Shown piece by piece: positions 29,211 through 61,077 of a stretch of 64,000 nucleotides of DNA. Position numbers and translations under genes: made by a program. Origin of the DNA: Aldrovandia affinis (taxonomy: Eukaryota; Chordata; Actinopteri; Notacanthiformes; Halosauridae); contig JAINUG010000011.1 of the NCBI GenBank assembly GCA_029706075.1, positions 9,057,001-9,121,000 of the forward strand, given 5' to 3'. The notes below the pieces were generated by a model. That model did not search any database. It was not told the origin of the DNA and was given only the letters and a program-made list of their open reading frames with translations. How positions within the stretch are numbered: the stretch's first letter is position 1; each line of letters starts with the position of its first letter.

Positions 29211-29247
29211 TACTTCCGGTGTCACGCAGAAAAATTCAAAATTAAAG
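29211..29247 (-). promoter_or_regulatory. MED27 core-promoter block (A/T box + CCGGAAGT)
   Basis: In the transcription sense: CTTTAATTTTGAATTTTTCT, then GCGTGAC and ACCGGAAGTAG, about 40 bp before the ATG. The spacer between A/T box and ETS site is shorter (10 bases) than in the other three (15-16). Confidence 0.58.
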
Positions 29248-29448
29248 TTAGAATGTATTTTTGCTTTTTTTTTCATTACTAAATCAAAATGTCTCAATTT
29301 TCTCAGCAACTTTAAGACAACTGCTGTTGCGGTACTTTCTTCTGTTTATAAATCATGTATTATTTATTACTGAGACCAAAATGTCTCACCATGTTTTTTG
29401 GGGTTCGTTGTGACTTCAAAAATGAATTAATTATGACCATGTAAAACA

Positions 29449-29715
29449 GTGGTTCTCAACCTGGGTCCTGGGGACTGTGTATGCTGGTTTTTGTTATAGC
29501 CAATCTCTTGTTGAAAAGTTCTACAGGTTTGGCTCATTGTTATTTGCATTCATTGAACTCATTCATTAATTCAATTCATTTTCCACAAATGGCTGTTTCA
29601 GTTACCAGGTGTCCACATTTTCAACAATTAGGCCCCCACTGATTTCACCTGCCAGTCTATAATTGAATTAATTAAAAAGGTATCCTAATGGAATCATGTG
29701 ACATAGAGCTAAGGA
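29449..29715 (+). repeat. hAT-like MITE, copy 2
   Basis: Begins CAGTGGTTCTCAACCTGGGT and runs through TTTTTGTTATAGCCAATCTC and TTAGGCCCCCACTGATTTCA. It then passes directly into the copy-B repeat. Confidence 0.65.
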
Positions 29716-30285
29716 CATCCATTTTTCACCACCTGTCAGGAACCTGCAGTTCCGTCCTCCAACACCAAGAGCTCAATGGAGGACTTTCTGAAGCTATCGG
29801 TTAAGCAATCAACACATTACGATTTCAAGTTATGATCATTCAATTACCACAAATTAGATTTGTATTGCAGTGTAGTAGACTAGTTAGTGGTTGGTGCTGC
29901 ACACAACCTCACATAATCATACTGATTGATTTGTAAGTAGGCTACTGCTTTCAATTGTGAAAATATGTCTGTTGACACTTCTGTAGGACATATCATGTCT
30001 GTGCTGGAGCAAAGAAACTGATATGTTGAAATGAGTGGGCAAATATTTTTAAACCACACAAACTTATGAAAACAATTGAAAGCAATTTTGACAGCCTAGG
30101 CAAAATAAAAATATAAAGAACAAATGTGTTATTGATGGGATACCTTGATTTTTAAAATTCAGTTAAGGGAACACAATAATTTATATCTTGGTGTTGATTT
30201 TAATCATTGTCAGATAATTTGTTGTTATAGAGGTGTAAAAACTTGTCCATAAGAGGAAATACTCCTCTCCGCCTCAACAGAATTG
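29716..30285 (+). repeat. hAT-like non-autonomous repeat, copy B
   Basis: Inverted counterpart of 21470-22010: CACCACCTGTCAGGAACCTG, GTATTGCAGTGTAGTAGAC, ACTTGTCCATAAGAGGAAA. The two copies are 7.5 kb apart on either side of MED27 exons 1 and 2. Confidence 0.65.
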
Positions 30286-30399
30286 TTTACAACTGATAAA
30301 TATTGTTTCACCACTTCTGTGCGGCTACGGGTGCCCTGGTCAACAGGGGCAAGAGCGAGCTGTTCCTGTCGCCATCATAGAGTGAGTCTCTTAACCTGT

Positions 30400-59500: not shown

Positions 59501-60714
59501 TTATTCCTTAGTCTTTTCTATAATCATGGTTGTTGTTCTCCATGCCCTGTTTGTCTTGTTATTTTCTTTTATATTTGCCTTTGTGTTTAATCTGCCTTTT
59601 TAATCCTTTTGTTTTACTCCACTTACATTTAATCTTTTTTTATGCCCATGGTTGTTGTTCTCCATGCCCTGCTTTTTCTTGCAATTGTATCTTATATTTG
59701 CCTTTGTGCATAATGTTTTTCTTTAATCCTTCTGTTTTACTCCTTTGTTTTACCTGGAAAGCACTTCAGTGCCATGTATGAAAAGCGCTTTACAAATAAA
59801 GTTATTATTAATAATTAATACATACATATACACTGATCGCACTTGCCTTAAGATGTTCATTGAATTCATCCTCAAATTTTCGGCCCCAGATACTTGTCCC
59901 TCCTTTCCCTGTACCTAAGTGTAGAAGGAAATATGTTTTGTTGTCGGAAAGAAGGCTGCCATTAAATCGGTGCTTTAAATGCTAGAATAATTCTTTTTCT
60001 ATTAATGAAAATATTGATTGACTGAAGTTCTCATTCACAAAACAAGTTAAACAATCTGTACAGTAGAATATAGATTATAGCATTTTATCACAAATTGAGC
60101 TTTTAACAGAAAATAAAATGTGTGACCTTAGTTATTACACAATCTTTCTATGAATTGCCATTACCTGTGGGGTCCCCTGTCTGCACCATGAAGCCTTTAA
60201 TGTTCCGGTGAAAAATGCAGCCATTGTAGAACCCGCTGGCACACAGCGCGAGGAAATTCTGTCAAAAGCAAATGCCTATTACAACGGTACTGCACGCGCC
60301 AACACTTTTGTTATAATACTACTAGATCGTGATCCGCACCTCACATGTCTTTGGAGCCCTTTCACAGAACAGCTCTATTTTCACATCTCCGAGGTCTGTA
60401 TGCAAAGTCACCGCCTGGGGAAAAAAGAGAGCAATGCTAATACCTACATATGAGCATTTTAAGATAAACTAGCTGGTTAGCTGGCTGTCCACTAATAGTT
60501 TGTGAGGTTTATTATTCACATTACAGCGTGCTATTTTGAACTGTGTCAAACAAAACGAGTGACTTGCTGCTGGATTCCAGTAGCTAACGCTATAAGGCTC
60601 TACTTCTGAATATTAAATCGTGATTTAGTCTACAATTACATTTATCCGAAATGTGTCCTAATTACAAAGTCAAATAAACTTTTAAAATACTACGACTTGA
60701 GCTAATTTTACCAT
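53576..60714 (-). CDS. ppil3: PPIL3, cyclophilin-like peptidyl-prolyl isomerase 3 (6 coding exons)
   Basis: Small cyclophilin of the spliceosome-associated PPIL3 family; these enzymes catalyse cis-trans isomerisation of prolyl bonds. Coding exons on the minus strand: 60712-60714 (the ATG alone), 60340-60414, 60165-60258, 59847-59914, 53821-53939, 53576-53702. Total 486 bp, 161 aa plus stop, the human length. It starts [19 protein letters not shown]. The active-site block [15 protein letters not shown] gives Arg44, Phe49, Met50 and Gln52, followed by [20 protein letters not shown]. Where most cyclophilins carry the drug-binding Trp, the sequence reads [13 protein letters not shown], as in PPIL3 of other animals. 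Intron 4 uses a GC donor (AAG|GCAAGT) and is 5.9 kb, full of transposon remains. Exon 1 carries only the start codon, so initiation depends on that splice. Head-to-head with the ENTR1-like gene. Confidence 0.97.
54173..54630 (+). mobile_element. Tc1 left half (same family as 40830)
   Basis: Begins CAGTGCATTCGAAAAGTATT after TA; continues ACCCCATAATGACAACGCAA and CACACCTGTCTATATAAGGT up to the transposase start region (AAGCCATGAAGTCC). The transposase itself is missing. It lies in PPIL3 intron 4. Confidence 0.82.
54865..55082 (-). repeat. tRNA-derived SINE (minus)
   Basis: In the minus sense: GGGGCGGCGGATAGCATAGC then GTCTAACGCACC (A-box side) and GGTTCAAAACCC (B box), body GGTGGCATTTAGCTGTCC, and a T-rich tail end. 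The best-preserved of three copies of this family here. Confidence 0.75.
55262..56136. repeat. Palindromic MITE pair (GGGGCCTGTCTCACGAAG ends)
   Basis: The outer ends ACCTGGGGCCTGTCTCACG (55262) and its inverse (to 56136) match over about 22 bp. A second inverted pair lies inside: GTGGGTTAGCGAGCTAACTT at 55520 and its inverse near 56085, each followed by TTTCGGTCTCACGACTG. This looks like one MITE nested in a related one. It is inserted in the copy-4 hAT-like MITE. Confidence 0.7.
56137..56280 (+). repeat. hAT-like MITE, copy 4 (right part)
   Basis: GTGTCCACACTTTCAACAAT then TTAGGCTCCCACTGATTTCA, as in copy 2. Confidence 0.6.
56281..57530 (+). mobile_element. ZBED-type hAT transposase, C-terminal part with an intron
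   Basis: A CAGTGGTGGGCCGTCAGGG end at 56281 is followed by two open blocks with good splice sites between: about 56407-56730 ([36 protein letters not shown]) and 56964-57529. The second holds [20 protein letters not shown] and the hAT dimerisation domain: [40 protein letters not shown], ending [11 protein letters not shown]. Both blocks are free of stops. The N-terminal zinc finger and first catalytic region are absent, and no right end was found. It is antisense in PPIL3 intron 4. Confidence 0.82.
57531..58835. other. Downstream of the hAT, unassigned
   Basis: Probably the 3' part of the hAT plus intron. GCTAGCTAACGTTAGC-type patches at 58640-58660. No gene. Confidence 0.4.
58836..59028 (-). 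repeat. hAT-type end (CAGGGGTGCCCAACC)
   Basis: In the minus sense it starts CAGGGGTGCCCAACCTTTTT; the body contains GAGATCTACCAGTCCCAGTT-like sequence. Confidence 0.55.
59300..59815 (+). mobile_element. L2-group LINE 3' end
   Basis: Decayed C-terminus ([17 protein letters not shown] reading near 59370) and the tail AAAGCGCTTTACAAATAAAG with TTATTA repeats. The tandem TATAATCATGGTTGTTGTTC and its partner near 59640 form an internal duplication. Confidence 0.6.
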
Positions 60715-60790
60715 TCTGAACTGCAGTTGACCGGATACAAACGCATTAGCGGTGAAGCTGCTCCACGAGCGTGAACCACAATAACGAAAC

Positions 60791-60833
60791 GACTTCCGGT
60801 GACCACTAGGGTGGAAAAATCTAAAATTGAAGC
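60791..60833 (-). promoter_or_regulatory. PPIL3 core-promoter block (A/T box + CCGGAAGT)
   Basis: Read in the direction of transcription: CTTCAATTTTAGATTTTTCC, then ACCCTAGTGGTC and ACCGGAAGTCG, about 79 bp before the ATG. The layout matches blocks before MED27, the SDR gene and the ENTR1-like gene. The ETS site is directly seen; a start site near it is inferred. Confidence 0.6.
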
Positions 60834-61034
60834 TGGGCATTGTTGCCTTTAAATCATGCAAAACTCAATAGAAATGGATTCATATAAAATGGTTTGCAAA
60901 ATGATTACATATATTCAGGCTAGTAAAGTTGTTCAGTTATGGAATAATATGTTACGATTTTGCAACAAAATATTCGGATTCCCTTATTTTTCGTCCAGTA
61001 AAAAAATAAAATTACAAATGAGAAATAATTCTGC

Positions 61035-61077
61035 TCGTATTTTGAATTTTTACGCCCCATTGGTCACCGGAAGTCGG
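61035..61077 (+). promoter_or_regulatory. ENTR1-like core-promoter block (A/T box + CCGGAAGT)
   Basis: Reads CGTATTTTGAATTTTTACG, then CCCCATTGGTC and ACCGGAAGTCGG, about 123 bp before the ATG. It shares TGGTCACCGGAAGTCG exactly with the opposed PPIL3 block. Confidence 0.6.

Follow-up and report, generated by a model that had tools for sequence, protein, structure and literature searches.

Remains of an old dispersed repeat, most likely a foldback transposon, at the promoter positions of four genes in the fish Aldrovandia affinis

Why do four genes within a single 64,000-nucleotide stretch of the genome of the fish Aldrovandia affinis carry the same composite sequence shortly before their start codons? 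The stretch (contig JAINUG010000011.1, positions 9,057,001 to 9,121,000, forward strand; hereafter the window) had received a preliminary description that placed an A/T-rich box followed by an ETS site at 29211-29247, 50465-50508, 60791-60833 and 61035-61077; all four blocks are found at these positions, oriented toward MED27, an SDR-like gene, a cyclophilin gene (among the cyclophilins, presumably PPIL3) and an ENTR1-like gene, respectively. We consider it likely that the blocks belong to an old dispersed repeat, most probably a foldback transposon, whose outward-facing promoter end serves the adjacent genes.

How much do the blocks share? In the 1.22-Gb genome, with the window contig (C113) part of the search set, ACCGGAAGTNG has 1276 places. 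From 100 of these that were listed we read 94 sites, which include the four of the window and leave out six tandem sites on contig C47. One long sequence is common to 12 of the 94, four in the window and eight elsewhere, in the order A/T box (cTTTTATTTnGATTTTTT), CCGCCATTTTGGT, ETS site (ACCGGAAGTCG) and ATTCCTTATTGTCGCTAGCTTCACACTC. The repeat is about 360 bp long; its outer end carries the A/T box, a YY1-like site (CCGCCATTTT), the ETS site and a conserved tail, and the four window blocks are its visible core. The motif names are our own assignments: we take CCGCCATTTT to be a YY1 site, ACCGGAAGT a GABP site and the A/T box a TBP site. In the longer copies, homology extends for about 270-390 bp on the 5' side of the ETS site; on its 3' side it continues for about 25-30 bp, fading at 30-40 bp. 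The block first described is thus real but was understated, the conserved tail 3' of the ETS site and the long 5' extension having been missed, and what had been noted as C-rich bases following the A/T box is the repeat's own CCGCCAT site. Agreement with the consensus is 66-75% in the columns of the arm, a divergence from which we conclude that the repeat is old. Two further dispersed repeats, both unrelated to the block, appeared in the same sample: one carries ACCGGAAGTCG and accounts for 26 of the 94 sites (TCAGAATTTTCAACTTTTCT..., for example L004-L006, L035 and L080), and another carries ACCGGAAGTGG and accounts for 10 (TTCGAGTTAGGTAGACCGG...).

Is this likeness more than an ETS site alone explains, as had been claimed? 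A core profile was trained without the window, on seven of the eight copies outside it. It finds all four blocks, and the similarity of spacer and flanks is far past chance. In the rest of the window the next match has an E value of only 7.2, the reversed window gives 0.39 at best, and among the other sampled loci, the eight copies aside, the best match is L013 at E 0.01. A long profile of 366 positions was built from 21 non-window copies. The copies found by the two profiles are the following.

29184 to 29289, minus strand: partial repeat copy that covers model positions 244-362 of 366 and includes the A/T box, the ETS site (29212-29220) and the tail, in the promoter position of MED27; core profile 1.8e-9 (29288-29184), long profile 2.7e-6.
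50444 to 50666, minus strand: repeat arm (model positions 126-355) in the promoter position of the SDR-like gene; core profile 3.3e-14 (50554-50446), long profile 5.7e-49.
50434 to 50557, minus strand: outer-end core of the 50444 copy, ETS site at 50467-50475.
60776 to 60849, minus strand: core-only repeat copy facing left, ETS site at 60792-60800, in the promoter position of the cyclophilin gene; core profile 4.3e-11 (60851-60774), long profile 4.2e-8.
60882 to 61105, plus strand: repeat arm (model positions 137-364) facing right, ETS site at 61066-61074, in the promoter position of the ENTR1-like gene; core profile 3.9e-18 (60988-61101), long profile 8.8e-48.

By the spans of the long-profile matches, the repeat is preserved over about 220 bp in two of the window copies, and over barely more than the core in the other two. 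Shuffles predict 0.75 places of the word CCGGAAGT in the window; there are five, and four of them are in the blocks. The fifth (61533-61540, minus strand) belongs to no block: it follows the first exon of the ENTR1-like gene and has no repeat core around it. From the 3' end of the ETS site to the ATG we count about 38 nt for MED27 (ATG 29173), 133 nt for the SDR-like gene (ATG 50333), 77 nt for the cyclophilin gene (whose inferred ATG, 60714, abuts a splice donor) and 120 nt for the ENTR1-like gene (ATG 61195), which fits the 40-135 bp first given.

The preliminary description offered two readings of the block, a dispersed promoter-borne sequence and a common core-promoter class. How dispersed is it? 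A DNA search of the genome with window positions 60985-61101 gave 31 matches including the query itself, the others being 73-87% identical; 20 of the 31 were retrieved and read. A 756-bp element from locus L019 gave 119 matches. A 23-base word over the ETS site and tail, allowing up to three mismatches, has 73 places in the genome versus 0 in a reversed control, a word from the arm has 39 versus 2, and an 18-base tail word with one mismatch has 25 versus 0. Merging all places within 1.5 kb of each other, and adding the MED27 site, leaves 94 loci on many contigs; a few single-word places in this count are probably chance, and the element search contributing to it scored only 40 of 163 candidates. 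(That the loci and the sampled ETS sites both number 94 is a coincidence.) Contigs C47, C337, C2016, C2192 and C2231 were left out of the count and taken as one tandem gene family, of which C47 alone was read. A repeat search with the block thus returns dispersed homology at many unrelated places in the genome.

Could segmental duplication, gene conversion or promoter capture, and not transposition, account for the spread of the copies? Eleven pairs of neighbouring loci lie within 50 kb of each other, where uniform placing predicts 0.36, and a tandem gene family on C47 carries the repeat. Such close pairs may be due in part to duplicated segments. The copies nevertheless precede unrelated genes, on dozens of different contigs, and in most of those read the likeness fades near the end of the core, so that we regard spread without transposition as quite unlikely. 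Two local arrays deserve description in their own right. On C2544, three places (275526, 286394 and 297363) follow one another at a near-equal spacing of 10.9 kb, possibly through local duplication or local hopping. On C47, nine ETS sites and nine core-word places fall within about 110 kb (320758-429877), all in one direction; three copies there (L048, L049 and L050) have more than 400 bp of downstream sequence in common, and L101 (C1911) and L104 (C447) show by eye the same downstream sequence. Together these represent a gene family carrying the repeat promoter, with the exon MHADYEDNASISSPC...

Might the arrangement instead be a common core-promoter class, in which A/T box, YY1 and ETS sites at set spacing arose independently and without common descent? 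Sites of these kinds are common in vertebrate housekeeping promoters. In human promoters, GABPA motifs gather around the transcription start, with +7/+8 among their positions (PMC5117513), and the W-box marks the starts used in the maternal mode of transcription in zebrafish (PMC10695386). We scored an A/T box as 10 of 11 A/T bases 8-20 nt before an ETS site, with the same position downstream as a mirror. Repeat-borne sites have the box in 10 of 12 cases and representatives of the other repeats in one of six (mirror one of six). At the 36 single ETS sites outside repeats it is present upstream in two and in the mirror in four, and the proposed pairing at that spacing does not hold there. Two other rules, 12 of 13 and 9 of 10, are passed by 9 and 10 of the 12 repeat-borne sites, and by 1 and 3 of the 36 single sites versus 1 and 5 in the mirror. 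All three are looser than an unbroken run of 10 A/T bases, which just 1 of the 12 repeat-borne sites passes, since the box of the repeat is broken by a G. Since the ETS sites outside the repeat lack the box, the spacing between A/T box and ETS site is best taken as inherited from the repeat. The 36 single sites, with a median CpG observed/expected ratio of 0.47, are probably mostly not promoters, and the comparison therefore says little about a class confined to true ETS promoters. Likeness among the copies, however, reaches up to about 330 bp upstream, and for the longer copies this arm homology rules such a class out; overall we hold independent origin to be very unlikely. The two readings first offered have accordingly parted: the dispersed promoter-borne sequence stands, with up to about 330 bp of homology at many unrelated places, and the common class found no support.

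Does the repeat lie at gene starts? We assembled 45 core copies: four from the window, nine from the ETS sample (L013 included), 20 matches of the block search and 12 of the L019 search. Directly after the core, a first exon was identified by search in six of the 45, belonging to MED27 and the cyclophilin gene in the window, EIF2B5 (L089), PSMD10 (L097), UPF0640 (L114, which we take to be SMIM4) and THAP (L092). Weak matches point to DCTN3 in L088 (Pfam 0.018, PDB 0.026) and GDE1 in L093 (Pfam GDPD 0.025, worse than MASE11 at 0.012). We further presume TIMM17 (L103), COX16 (L120), ACAD11 (L019, plus strand), UBXN4 (L118) and THUMPD2/3 (L113) from their translations. A PDB search returned nothing for the UBXN4 peptide and one unrelated chain for THUMPD2/3, and NCBIfam, a prokaryote library, gave nothing for the COX16, UBXN4, THUMPD and ACAD11 peptides.

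A test that makes no use of gene names is the CpG observed/expected ratio in the 330 bp beyond the repeat. It was computed for 39 copies, the four of the window included; five copies of the gene family (L048, L049, L050, L101 and L104) and L099, whose core is cut off, were excluded beforehand. The median is 0.89 (quartiles 0.75-1.09); other ETS sites (n = 81) have 0.60, flank pieces (n = 352) 0.49 and window tiles (n = 193) 0.36 (p 2e-9 against the flank pieces, 2e-7 against the other ETS sites). Among the 12 copies from the L019 search, picked from about 38 places as those whose match extends to the core end, the ratio exceeds the flank median in 11. By this proxy and the six identified exons, the repeat lies at gene starts more often than chance gives.

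Has the ETS site been kept as the copies decayed? In a set of 32 copies not selected through the ETS word, ACCGGAAGT is intact in 24. Its CpG is retained in 27 of the 31 that have sequence at this point, versus 16 of 32 for that of CCGCC, 21 of 29 for AGTCG and 20 of 32 for GTCGC, and this comparison with neighbouring CpGs is the fairer part of the test. The pattern suggests selection on the ETS site, or its lasting openness.

What kind of element carried the core? The clearest copy, L019:1475-2230, is made of two inverted arms, each with its promoter end to the outside, and folds end to end (DNA z -18.5, 20 shuffles). A corresponding structure lies between the cyclophilin and ENTR1-like genes, where two outward-facing cores produce a 50-nt inverted repeat and positions 60763-61107 fold with a DNA z of -6.2.

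60778 to 60827, minus strand: left arm of the 50-nt inverted repeat, 78% complementary to 61039-61088.
61039 to 61088, plus strand: right arm of the 50-nt inverted repeat, pairing with 60778-60827.

A second inverted core is partial in L105 (7e-5) and reduced to the tail in L107 (0.0076). The blocks are most likely the outer ends of the remains of an old foldback-type (long inverted repeat) DNA transposon whose long arms are composite, as judged from this architecture. Upstream of the 50465 copy, positions 50675-50768 and 51149-51242 pair as an inverted repeat of 94 nt (73%), which may be what decay has left of the other half of that element. Matches on both strands are no proof of a palindrome here, the 756-bp query being itself an inverted repeat, so that each single arm matches both strands.

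A solo long terminal repeat (LTR) or another retroelement promoter would be a natural alternative, LTRs being a usual source of repeat-borne promoters, and the inner sub-repeats that recur upstream of some copies recall U3 regions. Yet the homology stops about 30-40 bp from the core, placing the core right at its margin, with little room left for R-U5. The arms are inverted in some copies, and neither LTR-like ends nor short duplications were seen by eye. Because the promoter lies at the edge of the unit, we consider an LTR unlikely. A search of Rfam with L019, L010, L089 and L097 returned only a tail of the UnaL2 long interspersed nuclear element (LINE), RF00436, at L097:102-155 (plus strand), upstream of the PSMD10 copy.

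Several observations weigh against a foldback transposon with a promoter end. A second inverted core is seen in only four copies (L019, the window pair, L105 in part and L107 by its tail), upstream DNA covering only part of the copies, and none was found in the upstream stretches of six other copies and of L128. With these seven stretches, the two-ended element was dropped as a rule. Inspected by eye, the ends of L019, of the window pair and of L107 show no target-site duplication; old duplications may have been lost, given the 66-75% agreement of the arms. About 30 of the 45 core copies have no recognised gene in the 330-500 bp read for most of them; first exons are short and often non-coding. 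L090 (0.25) and L111 (0.29) sit in CpG-poor DNA. Finally, the 32 copies of the retention set were found through likeness to sequences containing the ETS site, which favours copies that kept it and raises the counts.

Which genes follow the four window copies? The starts and exons assigned to them are these.

28970 to 29173, minus strand: first coding exon of MED27, ATG at 29173, lower end approximate (translation; phmmer against PDB, Mediator subunit 27, 5.6e-31).
50331 to 50333, minus strand: probable start codon of the gene that follows the 50465 block; the translation reads MATDDAFK up to a possible donor.
60712 to 60714, minus strand: inferred cyclophilin start codon with GT immediately after; the next exon starts near 60414.
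61195 to 61242, plus strand: probable first coding exon of the rightward gene, MAKQTTSVKKIIIEDG (translation).

The cyclophilin exons match Pfam Pro_isomerase at 1.9e-4 (exon near 60414) and 2.6e-14 (exon in 53817-54092). The SDR identity is weak: for the exon near 46259, SDR chains score at E 0.04-0.4 and designed TPR proteins score better, and Pfam gives nothing but DUF2799 (0.052). We take the open frame at 63465-63713 to resemble ENTR1; Pfam has no match for this frame or for the exon at 61195-61242. Frames at 7681-8528, 13514-14323, 22305-22919, 32254-33706 and 56407-57529 are presumably pieces of Tc1-like or hAT-like transposases and a Gypsy-type pol, going by their translations.

How would such a repeat work as a promoter? 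In a copy situated a short distance before a gene, the outer end would act as that gene's promoter. The A/T box would be bound by TBP or an oocyte TBP paralogue, with the YY1-like and ETS (GABP) sites following within about 25 bp, and transcription would begin at or near the ETS site and read out of the repeat into the gene. Two ends facing apart, as between the cyclophilin and ENTR1-like genes, would make a divergent promoter. At MED27 the ETS site lies so close to the ATG that, if the block is the promoter, the start should fall between A/T box and ATG, a span of about 60-75 bp. It is plausible that transcription starts at the ETS site and that the A/T box acts maternally, as a W-box. More tentatively, and with some doubt on our part, a transposon with an outward housekeeping-type promoter at each end could, by insertion near gene starts and by local hopping, have given dozens of unrelated genes, divergent pairs included, a shared promoter of A/T box, YY1-like site, ETS site and conserved 5' untranslated tail, and with it a common, possibly maternal, ETS-driven regulon.

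Are there precedents? The closest are CERP2 and CELE2, two families of miniature inverted-repeat transposable elements (MITEs) that supply about one third of the germline-specific promoters of C. elegans (Carelli et al. 2022, PMC9757741). Like the fish repeat, these Caenorhabditis elements are small inverted-repeat elements whose arms carry paired promoter motifs, and they became promoters of hundreds of genes (PMC9757741). Unlike them, with their m1/m2 motifs and HIM-17 (PMC9757741), the present repeat is found in a vertebrate, at apparently housekeeping genes, with an A/T box, YY1-like and ETS sites; its copy number is far lower as far as seen. The zebrafish Angel elements are likewise teleost DNA repeats with long inverted arms; compared by description only, they are presented as stem-loops inside long non-coding RNAs, not as promoters, in the portion available (PMC3636048). 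Transposons also supply gene starts in zebrafish, mostly as testis-specific alternative starts from many families, unlike the single family seen here at the apparent main promoters of everyday genes (PMC9341505). The W-box of zebrafish maternal promoters is comparable in being an A/T-rich, TATA-like box at a fitting distance; it is a signal class, not a repeat, and is described in the accessible text without an ETS partner (PMC10695386). In the open-access literature we found no report of a fish repeat acting as promoter of many housekeeping genes, which is no proof of absence.

What would this mean for the fish? Housekeeping promoters are usually considered ancient and locally evolved. Here, four host genes in one 64-kb window, and others elsewhere, seem to be driven by copies of a single old repeat. 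If true, the nematode CERP2 case would have a counterpart in a vertebrate, and there at everyday genes. It would allow one to ask how a mobile promoter replaces a resident one harmlessly, and whether it was in the transposon or in the genes that selection shaped the arrangement of A/T box, YY1-like site and ETS site.

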